Assembly (NCBI GenBank): GCA_022496185.1
Contig: WTXG01000304.1
Span: forward strand, 1 to 40,475
DNA: 40,475 nucleotides
Direction of reading: 5' to 3'
Source of the DNA: Multifurca ochricompacta
Taxonomy: Eukaryota > Basidiomycota > Agaricomycetes > Russulales > Russulaceae
Shown: piece by piece, positions 34,474 to 40,150 of the stretch
How positions within the stretch are numbered: position 1 is the stretch's first letter
Layout of the letters: each line of letters starts with the position of its first letter
Translations under genes and position numbers: made by a program
The notes under the pieces: model-generated
Database searches by the model: none
What the model was told of the DNA's origin: nothing
Seen by the model: the letters and a program-made list of their open reading frames with translations, nothing else

Positions 34474-35307
34474 ATGTTGTCTCAACTGACCATTGCCATT
34501 CCCATCTTTGACGGATCTAACTATTCTGCTTGGGCCAATGTGATGAGGGCTTTCCTTATGTCTAGTGGGCTTTGGGAGGTCACAAATGGCTCCAACCCTT
34601 GTCCTAATGCCAAGGATGAACAGAACCCTACTGAAGATGAAAAATTACTTCAGAAGGAATGGGACCGCGCTGATAACAAGGCGATCGGCACTATAATCTT
34701 GAGGCTGTCCACTGTGATCCAGCATGAGCATACCTCAACTGGCTCTTCCTTTCTTATATGGATCGGTCTAAAGAGCAAGTATGGCTCAGTGGGGCCCGCT
34801 GCGATCTTTAGGGACTTCAAAGAAGCCCTAAACTTTTGCCTGGACTCTGCCAAGCACCCCTTGCCTCAGATTAACCACCTTGAGGTCGCCTTTGAGCGCC
34901 TTGAGACCAATAGTGTCACCATCCCTGATGTCTTGCAGGGCATGCTCCTGCTCCATACGCTCCCTCCCAAATGGGAGGCCCTTATCCCCACCATCCTTGT
35001 CAGAAGATCTCCTTCCAACATTAATCTAGCCATAATCTGCAATGCTGTGCTTGCTCAGTGGGAGCAAGATCGATCCAGGGGTAAGAACCCTCATGCAGCT
35101 AATAAGCTCTCGGCAATCAAACAGAAGCGGGGTGACCCTCGCTTTAATCAGCAGAAACACTTCGGTGGCAAGCAGCCGGAGCAAGCAGAGAAACAGTCGG
35201 ATCAGAAATTCCAGCACAGGCGCCATGCCGGGAAGAAGTATAGAGATAATCAGCAGTCCAAGGGACAGCAGCATTCTCACATCACCAATCAGGCTGTCAT
35301 GAACTGA
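34474..35307 (+). CDS. gag of copia element C2 (277 residues)
   Basis: ATG after AACA at 34470-34473, MLSQLTIAIPIFDGSNYSAW at the N-terminus, the N-terminal signature of copia gag (FDG.NY..W...M...L). Then LWEVTNGSNPCPNAKDEQN, WDRADNKAIGTIILRLS, LKSKYGSVGPAAIFRDFKEA, LPPKWEALIPTIL, and a basic, Gln/Lys/His-rich tail in place of a zinc knuckle. The frame ends at TGA 35305-35307; the expected protease and pol do not follow, because the gypsy element G2 starts within about 150 bp. Intact as a frame but part of a truncated or interrupted element. Confidence 0.82.
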   Translation: MLSQLTIAIPIFDGSNYSAWANVMRAFLMSSGLWEVTNGSNPCPNAKDEQNPTEDEKLLQKEWDRADNKAIGTIILRLSTVIQHEHTSTGSSFLIWIGLKSKYGSVGPAAIFRDFKEALNFCLDSAKHPLPQINHLEVAFERLETNSVTIPDVLQGMLLLHTLPPKWEALIPTILVRRSPSNINLAIICNAVLAQWEQDRSRGKNPHAANKLSAIKQKRGDPRFNQQKHFGGKQPEQAEKQSDQKFQHRRHAGKKYRDNQQSKGQQHSHITNQAVMN

Positions 35308-35451
35308 CACCCTAGAAAACCTCCTGACCCCCCAGAAATCCTCAGACACTCCAGAGACCTTGTAAAACCCTCAGAGACGAAGATAACCCTAGATTAAGAC
35401 CAGAGAAGGGCCGGTCCGGACCAGGGCCGGACTCCTGCCAAATTGGAGACC
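35308..35451 (+). other. Spacer between C2 gag and G2
   Basis: Open in the gag frame for 30 more codons (PRKPPDPPEILRHSRD) to a TAA, then GC-rich CCGGTCCGGACCAGGGCCGG. Probably residual C2 sequence; the G2 edge is not certain. Confidence 0.3.
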
Positions 35452-35876
35452 TGTGGGAAGAGTACTAACAGAACCCCACAATGTCTAAACAGCAGTGCAC
35501 AAACTGCGGACTGCGGACTGCGGACTGCGGATTCCTAAGCCCAAAAGTGGGGCTATTCTCATTGGTGGATCAGTAGGGAGTTAGAGCGAAGTTAACCTCC
35601 CCTAAAGTGGTGCACAGACCAAAGTCCCGGTTGTAATTACGTATATAAACCCTTTGGGAATAGAATGGACAGCTCCAGACTGTCCACTTGTGATCCGGTT
35701 CCTGATTACCTAGGAGATTAGCCCCACCTTGTGGAAGGCTTCTCATCCCCTGCCCTTGAGCTGTTCGCTTCGTCTCCCTTGCACTTTCACCCTCACTCTC
35801 ATCCTTTGCCCACTTCCAAATCCCTTCCCCTTTGCATACAACCCACTGTCCAGACAGTCGACAGTGAGTTGTAACA
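35452..35876 (+). repeat. 5' LTR of gypsy element G2 (left edge approximate)
   Basis: Right edge GAGTTGTAACA at 35876 is fixed by the adjacent primer site. The left edge TGTGGGAAGAGTACTAACAG is my best candidate; no second LTR is in the window to prove it. CTGCGGA is repeated four times at about 35505-35529. Confidence 0.6.
35642..35649 (+). promoter_or_regulatory. TATA box of G2 and predicted transcript start at 35677
   Basis: TATATAAA is followed 35 bp later by AGACTGTCCA (35677-35686), the segment complementary to the primer site. The same spacing is seen in G1 (34) and its solo LTR (34). The last ATG before gag, at 35665, lies between TATA and this start and so outside the predicted mRNA. 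Confidence 0.65.
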
Positions 35877-35878
35877 TT

Positions 35879-35888
35879 TGGACAGTCT
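35879..35888 (+). promoter_or_regulatory. Self-priming site of G2
   Basis: TGGACAGTCT begins two bases after the LTR end, as in G1, and is the exact reverse complement of AGACTGTCCA at the predicted mRNA start. This fits the Tf1-type self-priming mechanism. Confidence 0.72.
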
Positions 35889-35907
35889 CCTTTGCAGCAG
35901 ACAGTGA

Positions 35908-36984
35908 CTGACAAGTGCCCTAGTGTCCCAGAACAGCTCCCCTTTGACCAACTCTTCGGATCAAGCAGACTCCCCCCCCTACGAGCTTACCCCCCCCCAC
36001 GAAATCCTCAACTTTGCTGCCTTAGTAGAGGCAGCTGCCACAGCATCCCCTGCCCCCCCTTCGTCGGTTTTGCCTCCTCTGGAACTCCCAGAACTTCACC
36101 CTTTCCCTGTGCCCTCCCCCACCCTCCAACTACCTCCCCTTGCTCCCCCAGGTCTTCTGAACGCGTCCAACACCTTTGGTACCCCCCCTCCTCGCTATAT
36201 TCGCCTTCCAACCCCTGCCCCACCCCCTCCCACCACTGCAAACGCTCTCTCCCCTCGCCACCCTGGCACTGACCATCCTCCAGCACCTCCTGCTCTTCAC
36301 CTTCATCGTCCTGTGTGCCTTGACCATCCAACCAACCCTCACCAATTTCTTATCTACCATTCGATTGACGGTAATCAAGAATCTTGGGTGCCCAGTCAGT
36401 TCTCGAGAGAAACCAGCCTTTTTGATCAATATCCCTGCTTCCTGGACGTGCTTGAGCATAGAGCTAATTACCTTCCTGGTGTGCTCGTTTCTTTCCGCTT
36501 TCCTCACTTCCATATCGTTCCTATTCGCCCTCGTATTGATCGCTTCCTTCGTTCCACTTATTACCCCCCCTCCCACTTTGTAAACATCAATCTCTGTGCC
36601 AAGGTAGGGTTCTTGGCCCCCAACATTCTTACCTTCCCCAAGGGCCTCCTTGTCTATTCCTGGAACGCTTCCATTGCCCGCCTTCATCGCTCCCTCTCCC
36701 CAGAACTCCAGGACGTCTTCAGTGGGGCTAGAGTACTGCTCCAAGGCTTTGATCTTCTGGACGGACGCTTCCTCTCTTTGTTTGGCACCCTTAACTTCAC
36801 TGACATTGGGGTCCTAGTAGAAGAAAGATACTTCACAGTACGAGATATACTTAGAGACCATCTGGAGCTTGTCCCTTTAGTTTCCCCTGTTCGTCTACCC
36901 ACCAACCCCCTCCCTTTCCTTCCCATACACCCTTCAGACGGGTACCCTTGCTTTGAAGATATAGACTTTGATATCAACCTCTAA
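35908..36984 (+). CDS. G2 leader ORF A, ~358 codons without any Met
   Basis: Open from just after a TGA at 35905 to TAA at 36982. No ATG in frame, nor in the other two frames. Candidate near-cognate starts are CTG 35908 and GTG 35923 (then SQNSSPLTNSSD). The first third is Pro/Leu/Ala-rich (LPPLELPELHPFPVPSPTLQ); from about residue 125 it looks globular: HQFLIYHSIDGNQESWVPSQ, RANYLPGVLVSFRFPHFHIV, VNINLCAKVGFLAPNILTF, LSPELQDVFSGARVLL, with an acidic end EDIDFDINL. No family recognised and no TM segment convincing. It lies between the primer site and gag, where Ty3 elements normally have only a short leader. Coding is inferred from the length of the open frame. Confidence 0.5.
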   Translation: MTSALVSQNSSPLTNSSDQADSPPYELTPPHEILNFAALVEAAATASPAPPSSVLPPLELPELHPFPVPSPTLQLPPLAPPGLLNASNTFGTPPPRYIRLPTPAPPPPTTANALSPRHPGTDHPPAPPALHLHRPVCLDHPTNPHQFLIYHSIDGNQESWVPSQFSRETSLFDQYPCFLDVLEHRANYLPGVLVSFRFPHFHIVPIRPRIDRFLRSTYYPPSHFVNINLCAKVGFLAPNILTFPKGLLVYSWNASIARLHRSLSPELQDVFSGARVLLQGFDLLDGRFLSLFGTLNFTDIGVLVEERYFTVRDILRDHLELVPLVSPVRLPTNPLPFLPIHPSDGYPCFEDIDFDINL

Positions 36985-37025
36985 ACAGTACGTTGTGCAT
37001 AACTGTAGAGGTTCCTTGTAAATAA

Positions 37026-37979
37026 AAGAGTTCTTGGGTGCGGAAAATAGTGTCCTTCCCCACAGAAAGAGAAGACCGCCTCCGACGGGTCCAAAGACAA
37101 TTTGACCACCTTTTCCAACTTCACAGAGAAGCACAGCTCGCCCTCCTGTACCCAGAACCCCTCATCAGCACCCTCCACGACGACGGACAAGCAGAAGGCT
37201 GGTGTGACGTTGATACTATCTATCTACCCCTTCGTCTTCTCCTCCCATTTGGGCGAGTTCTCACTCAAACCCAGTACAACCAATTCCTGTCCGGACCTTG
37301 CCAAAGCATTCCCCGAGACTCCCAACACCAACTCCTTTACTGGCACCTTGCTCAGCTCACCCATTCCACAGGGGACCCCCTTGAAACACTCCTGATCTGT
37401 GTCAACGACGAATATCTTTGGAAAGAGCACATCCCTCCTCGCATCCCAGAACTTGAAACACTTGTGCTCAGAGGGGAACGTCTTTATTACCTCTCTACCT
37501 TTCGTTTGGACCACATAAGAATTAATCTCACCTTTGACGAGATCCGCCTCCACTCCGCTCCCTCCCCCTCTGGCTGGCGACTGGTAGAAACAGAAGGCAT
37601 ACAAATTGAATACCTGTGGACTGCTGATTACTGGGAGACCACCTCTCGTAACCATTGCCCATTCCTTGTCAACCCTCCCATCTTCACAGACCCCCCTTAT
37701 CTCCCTACCTACGCTGAACTCTCCCCCTCCCCAGAACCAGAAGAGCTCACATTCCCTACCCTTTCCCTTGCAGCAGTCACTCAAGAAGAAGAACGCCTCA
37801 CCCAGATCCAGACAGCCTTAATTGGTACTACTACCACCTGGTCTGACCTTGAAACTCCCACAGAAAATACCTCGGACTTTGAAGAGAGTTCTCCTGTACC
37901 CAGACGGCACTGCCTCTGTGAGATTGATCTTTGCACCTGTAATTATCGCCCAGAAACCCCCCCTACCCCCCAGGCATAG
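37026..37979 (+). CDS. G2 leader ORF B, ~317 codons without any Met
   Basis: Open from 37026 (after TAA) to TAG at 37977. First near-cognate codon GTG 37038 (RKIVSFPTEREDRLRRVQ). Middle is globular-looking: QLALLYPEPLISTLHDDG, WCDVDTIYLPLRLLLPFGR, LLYWHLAQLTHSTGDPLE, RGERLYYLSTFRLDHIRI, EGIQIEYLWTADYWETT. The C-terminal part is Ser/Thr/Glu/Pro-rich with a Cys cluster CLCEIDLCTC near the end. No family recognised. It is 41 bp after ORF A and in another frame. The segment TPSERE to RVQRQFDHLFQLHREAQ could form a short amphipathic helix. Confidence 0.48.
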   Translation, partial: KSSWVRKIVSFPTEREDRLRRVQRQFDHLFQLHREAQLALLYPEPLISTLHDDGQAEGWCDVDTIYLPLRLLLPFGRVLTQTQYNQFLSGPCQSIPRDSQHQLLYWHLAQLTHSTGDPLETLLICVNDEYLWKEHIPPRIPELETLVLRGERLYYLSTFRLDHIRINLTFDEIRLHSAPSPSGWRLVETEGIQIEYLWTADYWETTSRNHCPFLVNPPIFTDPPYLPTYAELSPSPEPEELTFPTLSLAAVTQEEERLTQIQTALIGTTTTWSDLETPTENTSDFEESSPVPRRHCLCEIDLCTCNYRPETPPTPQA

Positions 37980-38071
37980 TGTTGTGGAGGCCTTCTGCCT
38001 TTGATACATACTTACCTTCACATTACTCAATCTAAGTAGGAAAAGGGAATAAAAAGAGACTCCTTTGCATC

Positions 38072-38368
38072 GTGGCTAGTATTACTGACTGGGCTATCAA
38101 CCTGGCGTCCCAACACAGAAGAAGTCAGTCCAACTCCCCCCAAGATAGAAGAAGAAACCCTAGAAGACGTAGCAGTAACGATACACCGGCCACACCTGCC
38201 CCTCATCACACCACTAGGAGGCAAAGAGCACAAACCCATCCCAGTCCCAGTGCACCCCCACCAGAGCGACCACTTCCCCCTGTCCCAGAGCCCTTCCTTG
38301 CCCATCTAAACTATTCCCCTATTCCCCAACATCCACCCAGCTCGCTTCGACATCAACACCCTTCCTAA
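38072..38368 (+). CDS. Overlapping frames between ORF B and ORF C, uncertain
   Basis: A basic frame (98 codons, from GTG 38072: ASITDWAINLASQHRR, then Arg/Pro/Ser-rich) overlaps a frame ending at 38309 that reads TEEVSPTPPKIEEETLEDVA then VTIHRPHLPLITPLGG. Both lack ATG. One of them may be the true N-terminal part of ORF C joined by an indel. Confidence 0.3.
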   Translation: MASITDWAINLASQHRRSQSNSPQDRRRNPRRRSSNDTPATPAPHHTTRRQRAQTHPSPSAPPPERPLPPVPEPFLAHLNYSPIPQHPPSSLRHQHPS

Positions 38369-38802
38369 ACCTTCCAGTTGTAGAATCAGATCAGTCCCGA
38401 TCCCGATCCCCTTCCATTGTTCACCTGGTCAACCACATCTACCCTGCCACCGATATCTACGTCTCTGGGACATTACCAACTCGAAACCCCAGTGAACTAC
38501 GAGAATTCCACCTTCACTGCTCTGCCCAACTTGCAACTCAAAGAGCCAATCACCTTGACGTCTACCATCCCTTGAGTGAAGCTAACCGTATCACCACAGA
38601 CCCCCTGTACTTTGAGAATCTCCTTTGGCGACTCCGCATTGTTATCTCTGCTCCAGGAATAGTTGAAGAGTATTACTGGATCCACAGGAACATCCGCAAC
38701 TACCGTCTAGATCGTGCTGTCCTTCGCCCCGCCTACCAAGTCTTCTACGCCTGGAACGCCCAAGGGTGGACTACATACCGCCTTAGCACCCGCTCTGAAT
38801 GA
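38218..38802 (+). CDS. G2 leader ORF C, ~194 codons without Met, overlapping gag start
   Basis: Open from 38218 (after TAG 38215) to TGA 38800-38802. The well-structured part starts about 38370: LNLPVVESDQSRSRSPSIVH, HIYPATDIYVSGTLPTRNPS, NHLDVYHPLSEANRI, FENLLWRLRIVISAPGIVEE, YYWIHRNIRNYRLDRAV, YQVFYAWNAQGWTTY. The stop overlaps the gag start as ATGA (A 38799, TGA 38800-38802). Such overlaps allow reinitiation after termination, as in some fungal totiviruses. No family recognised. Confidence 0.48.
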   Translation, partial: EAKSTNPSQSQCTPTRATTSPCPRALPCPSKLFPYSPTSTQLASTSTPFLNLPVVESDQSRSRSPSIVHLVNHIYPATDIYVSGTLPTRNPSELREFHLHCSAQLATQRANHLDVYHPLSEANRITTDPLYFENLLWRLRIVISAPGIVEEYYWIHRNIRNYRLDRAVLRPAYQVFYAWNAQGWTTYRLSTRSE

Positions 38803-40150
38803 CCTCAGAACGACCTCTTACTGCTGAAGAATTAGCTCAAGTCCCCTTTGGCTTCACCCACCCTATTTTTGACTACGACGACCGTACTTTTGTTGCTACC
38901 TGGAAAGGAGACAACTACTACACTCAGACTCTTGGACACGACTGGAAACGCCTTCGAGACAGCCGCATCCTTCCTGTAAACGAATATCTCAGTAATTTCC
39001 CCAACATTGACCTCATCAGCAACCTTGACCTCCACACATTCTACGGAACATACAATGGAAAGGAAGTCCGTTGGTCTGACACCCATACAGCGTGGGTCTA
39101 TCTTAATAACCACCGTGTCCAATTCCCAGTTGCTTCCATCACCTCAGACGAAGAAGAAGTATCTCAGTCCCTTGAAGCCGTAGAGCAATCCCTTCGTGCT
39201 ATCACCCTCAGAACCCCCCCTACTCTCCCATCCATATCCCTTGCCTCCACAACCACTGCCATTGCTTCACACCCCCCAAAGACACCAACACCTCTGAATA
39301 TCATGAGTACTACTGCCGCCTCCAGTGGAAAGATCCTGGGAGCACCCCCAGAATCTTTTGATGGTCAAGCTTCTAAAGCAGAACGTTTCTGGTCCCAACT
39401 AGCCAACTACTACTACCTAAATGAGGGTGCCTTCACTGATGAGAGTAGACGAGTCTCTGCAGCCCTCACCCACTTTAAACTTGATACACCAGCAGGCGAA
39501 TGGGCCAGAGACCGCACCAACACTGCACTCCAAGCCAACCCCCCTTCCTTTGGGACTTGGACCGCTTCAGAATTGACTTTGAAAAACAGTTCATTCCAGT
39601 AGAGAGTCGCCTCCTGTCCACCAAAGCCATGTATGAAATTCGCCAAGGCACTCGCCCCTTCAATGACTGGTACCAAGAGTGGTCCACCCATGCTACTCGT
39701 GCTACAGTGGATGAAAACACCAAGATCTATGCCTTCCGAAGCATGATCAACCAAGGTCTAGGACAGAAGCTCCTTGGACTATCCCCCCAGCCCACCACAC
39801 TCCGTGATCTTGTCACTAAGGCCAGAGAGTTTGATGCAGCATGGCAGCTCTATGGCAAGACCACCAAACCTCGGCCTCTCCATCTGCGTGTCGGAGAAGC
39901 TACCACTGATAACCCAGAAGCCCAAGTCAACTTTGTTTGCCTCTCCCCAGCCCAGAAACCCTAACACCCCTCCACGCACTACCAAGTTAACCCAGAAGAA
40001 AAGAAGTATCGACGAGAAAATAAGCTTTGCTTCTATTGTGGGAAGCCTAATCACATCGCCAATCAATGCCGCAGCAAGACCAGGGCTATCCAAGGTCAAG
40101 GACCTCCTCGCCCTACCCCAGTAAGAGCCCTGGCATCAGAAGAAACACCC
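38799..40150 (+). pseudogene. gag: G2 gag: N-terminal domain, capsid and zinc knuckle; one frameshift and one TAA
   Basis: ATG 38799 is the first in the predicted mRNA. Residues 1-125 (FTHPIFDYDDRTFVATWKGD, YLSNFPNIDLISNLDLHTFY) form a domain not seen in usual Ty3 gag; an internal ATG at 39303 (MSTTAASSGK) lies where G1 gag starts (MSTMPPNSQ). Capsid: PPESFDGQASKAERFW, TPAGEWARDRTN, then after a frameshift near 39553 FRIDFEKQFIPVESR, GTRPFNDWYQEWSTHA, GLGQKLLGLSPQPTTLRDLV. TAA at 39962-39964 (possible former CAA) interrupts; the frame goes on to the CCHC knuckle CFYCGKPNHIANQC at 40028-40069. Particle-forming and RNA-binding role by family. Confidence 0.85.

Follow-up and report, generated by a model that had tools for sequence, protein, structure and literature searches.

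How could a ribosome that loads at the 5′ end of a messenger RNA (mRNA) reach a gag start codon about 3.1 kb downstream? This question is raised by a Ty3/Gypsy retrotransposon with long terminal repeats (LTRs) in the window analysed here, a stretch of 40,475 nt from Multifurca ochricompacta (contig WTXG01000304.1, positions 1 to 40,475 of the forward strand). The initial annotation had reported that the predicted leader in front of gag, positions 35668-38798, contains no ATG in any frame, and a direct count confirmed this. The second-longest ATG gap on the plus strand of the whole window is 642 nt, and the longest gap between CATs, the opposite-strand counterpart, is 577 nt. We ran the shuffle control that had been proposed: 2,000 dinucleotide-preserving shuffles of the leader gave 27.1 ± 4.2 ATGs with a minimum of 12, against none observed. 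CAT occurs 47 times in the same interval (a hand count had given more than 40), which is normal for 500 shuffles with a mean of 43.7. As also described before (about fifteen ATGs in 1.1 kb), the triplet returns after the gag start, with 14 copies in the next 1,000 nt and 17 in 1,100 nt, although the first ∼500 nt of gag are sparse and have ATGs at 38799, 39055, and 39303 only. The ATG desert is real and strongly non-random.

It could be argued that base composition or a mutational bias, rather than selection on translation, has removed ATG, since the leader has little G (17%) and much C (35%). But shuffles preserving both composition and dinucleotides retain at least 12 ATGs, CAT is normal, and the near-cognate triplets GTG, TTG, and CTG are common in the leader (32, 68, and 65). 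Moreover, 18 ATGs are found in the element's own gag and 82 in its pol, and decayed copies of the leader gain ATG freely (see below). This explanation has practically no probability left and can be regarded as already refuted in practice, so that strand-specific avoidance beyond base composition, as initially proposed, holds.

We subsequently searched for other copies in the 53.8-Mb genome that includes the window contig. Matches to the DNA of 35400-38798 number at least 47, a lower bound because 40 of 380 candidates were scored. Thirty leader loci were cut out, 24 of them with both leader ends; the other six were set aside because the 5′ anchor is missing in L011 and the gag anchor in L025-L028 and L030. 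Nine of the 24 have no ATG; three contain a single one, and the remaining twelve between 2 and 26. The nine ATG-free copies represent three lineages, namely A (L001, L002, L003, L005, L006), B (L012, L014, L017), and C (L019), which differ by 12.0% (A-B), 13.0% (A-C), and 9.3% (B-C) when L001, L012, and L019 are compared. None of the respective 372, 405, and 288 substitutions gave rise to an ATG, while random placement would give 9.3-10.2, 10.7, and 7.1-7.8; the three comparisons share branches. Shuffle means for individual ATG-free copies are likewise high (26.3 for L012, 26.1 for L017, 24.7 for L019; none observed in each). Within lineages, observed and expected gains are 0 and 1.2 (L001-L006), 0 and 0.7 (L012-L017), and 1 and 2.0 (L019-L013), and decayed copies show 8 against 5.1 (L010), 20 against 13.4 (L029), and 26 against 8.6 (L023). 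Altogether, the 15 ATG-bearing copies contain 109 ATGs, 91 of which are aligned to ACG in the nearest ATG-free copy, as deamination at CpG would give. From the difference between ATG-free lineages and decayed copies it follows that selection keeps restoring the desert in lineages that transpose, and that it decays afterwards. Copies with many ATGs, which the initial annotation had named as a counter-argument, thus do exist, but they are decayed copies only.

Among loci outside the 24, L011 has 16 ATGs in its 2,993 nt, L030 has 5 in 1,830 nt, and L062 has 4; L025 and L026 were not cleanly counted. L027 (contig C238; 2,676 nt) and L028 (C482; 2,664 nt) contain no ATG. These two share a deletion from inside the third leader open reading frame (ORF) into the reverse transcriptase region and keep the first two ORFs. 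L027 lies between LTRs ∼6.4 kb apart, and LTRs on contig C171 are similarly spaced; this type is possibly a non-autonomous derivative that has spread. Near the leader copies L012, L023, L024, and L025 we found a second, inverted 5′ LTR region, that is, head-to-head insertions. The B-lineage copies are 97-99% identical to the window in their LTRs and 87-88% in their leaders, a contrast which suggests recombination between subfamilies. In DNA of other species, four scans of viral contigs and two of genome contigs found no relatives.

By the features tested, namely pol order, gag domains, and LTRs with a short duplication, the element is a Ty3/Gypsy (Metaviridae) chromovirus. On contig C12 there is a near-identical copy whose 583-bp LTRs differ at one position and are flanked by a 5-bp target-site duplication, CCCAC. 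In its pol ORF (L061, 1,256 amino acids), Pfam identifies an Asp protease (77-185), RVT_1 (357-517), RNase H (581-712), integrase (826-995), SH3_Tf2-1 (1110-1169), and Chromo (1194-1246), which is the Ty3 order, and the 476-codon gag of L002 matches Retrotrans_gag and zf-CCHC, both above the cut-off. The original Ty3 assignment is supported by this order of protease, reverse transcriptase, RNase H, integrase, and chromodomain.

The start of the message was predicted from its primer-binding site (PBS). In Tf1, and probably Tj1, the PBS pairs with the 5′ end of the mRNA (PMC4600332). On this model, position 35677 is the predicted start, a placement that draws on the self-primer/PBS pairing together with the TATA box (TATATAAA). 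The complementarity between the PBS, TGGACAGTCT, and the predicted 5′ end, AGACTGTCCA, extends over 10 nt and is intact in 23 of 24 copies. An A at −1 and GACTGTCCA at the predicted start are found in 24/24 copies, which were themselves chosen by a permissive match, allowing up to 4 errors, to a region including the AGACTGTCCA motif. The last ATG before the tract is located 12 nt upstream of, and so outside, the predicted mRNA in all 24 copies. Hence two earlier statements are borne out, the position of this ATG before the predicted mRNA start and the match of the desert to the predicted leader, whose start agrees with the self-primer pairing. A giant LTR that would enclose the leader and be followed by a tRNA-type PBS at 38104 was also considered, and is ruled out because the LTR ends at 35876. 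The LTR start falls inside a copia-type gag ORF (Retrotran_gag_2; window 34474-35307), indicating a nested insertion.

The leader is nearly filled by three ORFs without a methionine codon (Table 1). They are separated by ∼40 nt (ORF1-ORF2) and ∼60 nt (ORF2-ORF3), and ORF3 overlaps gag by 4 nt. Together they have no Met codon in 930, compared to 24 in 1,732 for gag plus pol. Codon choice follows the same rule. When a NAY codon precedes G, NAT is used in 0 of 23 cases in ORF1-3, but in 53 of 58 in pol (Fisher 1e-15) and 10 of 17 in gag; before other bases, the leader ORFs use NAT in 49 of 129 cases. Codons ending in A account for 0 of 29 before TG in ORF1-3. Since in-frame and out-of-frame ATGs are both purged, a preference for certain amino acids is no explanation. 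Judged from these counts, the avoidance acts on nucleotides, in synonymous positions and across codon boundaries.

Table 1. Positions of the leader, its predicted signals, and the flanking features in the window
Feature	Position	Strand	Remarks
5′ LTR, 583 bp, TG...CA	35294..35876	+	boundaries from 5′/3′ LTR comparison of the C12 copy
TATATAAA box (TATA box)	35642..35649	+	35 nt upstream of predicted mRNA start; 23/24 copies, L024 differs
Last ATG before the tract	35665..35667	+	kept in 24/24 copies
ATG-free tract	35668..38798	+	3,134-nt gap between consecutive ATGs 35665 and 38799
Predicted mRNA 5′ end, AGACTGTCCA	35677..35686	+	complementary to PBS (self-primer)
PBS, TGGACAGTCT	35879..35888	+	2 nt past LTR; identical in 23/24 copies, deleted in one
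ORF1	35908..36984	+	358 codons stop to stop, no Met
ORF2	37026..37979	+	317 codons stop to stop, no Met
Predicted ORF2 start, ATA (A at −3, G at +4) then GTG	37047..37052	+	AAAATAGTGTCC in 24/24 copies
ORF3	38036..38802	+	255 codons in L002; frame-split in window copy (38036-38365 and 38218-38802)
Predicted ORF3 start, GTG (A at −3, G at +4)	38072..38074	+	GTG then G in 24/24 copies
ATGA, gag start overlapping ORF3 stop	38799..38802	+	
gag, 5′ part	38799..39602	+	frame broken in window copy; 476 codons open in L002

All three ORFs show coding constraint. ORF3 is open over 255 codons in L002, L003, and L008 and over 253 codons in four B copies, and its ratio of non-synonymous to synonymous substitution rates (dN/dS) is 0.023-0.034 in 12 A-B pairs (61-71 synonymous versus 7-8.5 non-synonymous changes). 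For ORF2 we obtained 0.076 (L001-L015) and 0.18-0.19 against L014 and L019, whose C-termini run in another frame. ORF1 yielded 0.183 (L001-L013) and 0.203 (L001-L024), and other cross-lineage pairs 0.21-0.32. On this comparative evidence, ORF1-3 are conserved coding cistrons; the initial annotation had rightly seen long ORFs within the leader, but had overlooked that they form three conserved Met-free cistrons. ORF2 has a single match among 5.8 billion proteins, P0121 (323 amino acids; 37% identity over 97%). This relative likewise contains no Met, for which the chance is ∼1% at the Met frequency of gag plus pol, and suggests an old arrangement that extends beyond this genome. No relatives of the ORF3 protein were found among 723 candidates. 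Pfam gave nothing convincing for ORF1-3, with part of ORF3 matching below the cut-off only, and a sequence search of the PDB returned two weak matches for ORF3 (E 0.23 and 0.62) and none for ORF1 and ORF2. Structures predicted from single sequences were of too low quality for use (mean predicted local distance difference test scores of 36.3 and 39.8). The idea that the ORFs are duplicates of each other or of the gag N-terminus is unsupported (hhalign probabilities of 0.2-0.9%).

Taken together, we regard it as probable that the 3.1 kb are an AUG-purged polycistronic leader. Of the ribosomes loading at the mRNA 5′ end, a part would initiate at non-AUG codons of ORF1, ORF2, and ORF3, while the others would continue scanning until gag, whose AUG is the first in the predicted message. 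Scanning would be helped by the sense strand being G-poor and low in structure: its mean folding energy per 120 nt is −18.0 kcal/mol, compared to −28.9 for the antisense leader and −26.5 for the sampled rest of the window. The AUG purge in every frame would be a requirement of leaky scanning because any AUG would capture scanning ribosomes. Leaky scanning is thus the likely reason for the avoidance, and polycistronic expression by this route the likely logic of a stretch made up of three conserved Met-free cistrons. We lean, if only slightly, towards the more far-reaching view that this LTR retrotransposon lineage is truly polycistronic, with three non-AUG accessory proteins before gag and one scanning stream serving four cistrons.

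Candidate starts can be named for two of the ORFs. In the whole tract, 13 near-cognate codons combine A at −3 with G at +4. ORF2 is predicted to start at AUA 37047 or GUG 37050, and ORF3 at GUG 38072, where AT(C/T)GTGG is present in 24/24 copies, or at the in-frame CUG 38102 of equal context. The beginning of ORF3 (window 38050-38130) is near-invariant between lineages even at synonymous sites, unlike the remaining leader, and is possibly an RNA signal or a start-site element. The position of the gag start is common to 16 homologues, 38-45% identical, which are not a random sample because they were picked from 120 listed (the top ones and some with long coverage).

Several observations weigh against this interpretation. 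For ORF1 there are weak start candidates only: none of its in-frame near-cognates combines A at −3 with G at +4, and GTG 35923, though present in 24/24 copies, has a weak context. All copies come from one genome, and many of them, the window's included, carry broken frames. Several close pairs for ORF1, ORF2, and gag with an indel frame shift show dN/dS of 0.7-1.1, values which speak for single-copy decay or homopolymer errors. Shuffling synonymous codons within ORF1, ORF2, and ORF3 (4.0, 3.6, and 2.4 ATGs expected, minimum 0 each) is on its own a weak control. The sense strand of gag and pol also folds weakly (−20.5 kcal/mol per 120 nt), and a possible splice donor, GTGAGT, is located at 35864. 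Furthermore, with T at −3 and A at +4 the context of the gag AUG is weak, so that this codon should be leaky itself, and the next AUG, at 39055, is out of frame. Of the initial proposal, selection for scanning from the cap to gag, the strand-specific selection stands, while plain scanning leaves the weak gag AUG unexplained.

This weak context is one of the features that would suit coupled termination-reinitiation, in which ribosomes translate ORF1-3 from non-AUG starts, reinitiate at each following cistron, and arrive at gag mainly via its ATGA overlap with ORF3. The close spacing of the ORFs is also in favor, as is the near-invariance of the ORF3 end and gag start among 19 displayed copies. 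But reinitiation alone needs no purge in the ORF bodies, since elongating ribosomes do not see out-of-frame AUGs, and the observed purge covers these bodies as well as the region upstream of ORF1. As the main route we therefore rate it unlikely. As an addition to leaky scanning, reinitiation from ORF3 into gag may contribute, because the gag AUG overlaps the ORF3 stop.

The donor-like GTGAGT, together with a branch/acceptor-like pair at 38582/38599, raises the alternative of a spliced gag mRNA (e.g., from 35864 to an acceptor near 38599), with the leader ORFs expressed from unspliced RNA. A leader-free mRNA would take away the reason for purging ATG in all three frames, and introns upstream of gag were unreported for any LTR retroelement as of 2005, according to the accessible text of PMC1142308; we judge splicing to be quite improbable. 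Still less credit is given to gag translation by an internal ribosome entry site or shunting with ORF1-3 made from other transcripts. Shunting past long leaders is known for cauliflower mosaic virus and rice tungro bacilliform virus (RTBV) (PMC5902531), but bypassed AUGs would be harmless and the purge would remain without explanation.

The closest precedent for an AUG-purged leader read by leaky scanning lies outside Ty3. ORFs I and II of RTBV have no internal AUGs, and leaky scanning over 900 nt was shown experimentally; ORF I starts at AUU and ORF II at AUG, and the structured leader is bypassed by shunting (PMC5902531). As far as their accessible descriptions go, RTBV and the badnaviruses (Caulimoviridae) share with the present element reverse transcription and accessory ORFs, free of internal AUGs, upstream of a gag-pol-like ORF. 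Of the RTBV-type features, upstream ORFs free of internal AUGs in all frames are present here. As to non-AUG or weak start codons for the upstream ORFs, the candidates are conserved ATA/GTG codons in good context at ORF2 and ORF3, with none at ORF1. Unlike in RTBV, 3.1 kb are purged (∼3.5 times 0.9 kb), none of the three ORFs has an AUG, and the element is an LTR retrotransposon with a chromodomain integrase. Caulimoviridae have no LTRs, no integrase, and a circular DNA genome, and the present element differs from the family in having LTRs and integrase. By analogy, it would work like an RTBV-type pararetrovirus but is not one. To our knowledge, ∼3.1 kb is the longest AUG-free tract of such kind.

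Self-priming Ty3 elements of the Tf1/Tj1 type from fission yeasts resemble the present element in a PBS complementary to the mRNA 5′ end, the Ty3 domain order, and the SH3_Tf2-1 match, but no three-cistron AUG-free leader is described for them in the accessible text of PMC4600332. The plant Ty3 elements Ogre and Diaspora also have a very long region between LTR and gag, which in Ogre contains a 550-codon ORF; this comparison is by description only, and no AUG purge or start-codon analysis is reported in the accessible part of PMC1142308. For Shallot virus X, an allexivirus and thus an RNA virus unlike our element, a downstream protein, p42, is reported to be expressed via leaky scanning (PMC12389679). 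We found no LTR retrotransposon with an AUG-free leader in the open-access literature, subscription papers being largely outside this coverage; within this scope, the earlier remark that no Ty3 element is described like this is upheld, with RTBV and the badnaviruses as precedent outside Ty3 (PMC5902531).

The same window possibly contains a second AUG-poor leader. At 334-976, a 642-nt ATG gap ends at the ATG of another, very different Ty3-like gag (∼20% identity) and encloses an ATG-less ORF of 112 codons (491-829). L002 contains a partial copy with 84% identity, corresponding to 512-1000, in which there is one internal ATG (775); a copy with 74% identity in L023 contains many.

For several Ty3 elements, Ogre and Diaspora among them, it has yet to be explained how a gag preceded by such a long 5′ region is translated; the function and translation of the pre-gag region and the mode of gag translation are called unclear (PMC1142308). 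For the element described here, the sequence record over three lineages points to scanning, since the purge extends from the predicted mRNA start up to the gag AUG. If this is correct, leaky scanning of the RTBV type would be extended to LTR retrotransposons and to 3.1 kb, and the leader would be a natural test of the distance that eukaryotic ribosomes can scan past many near-cognate codons. It would also reveal a class of Met-free proteins with non-AUG starts that gene finders requiring an ATG will miss.

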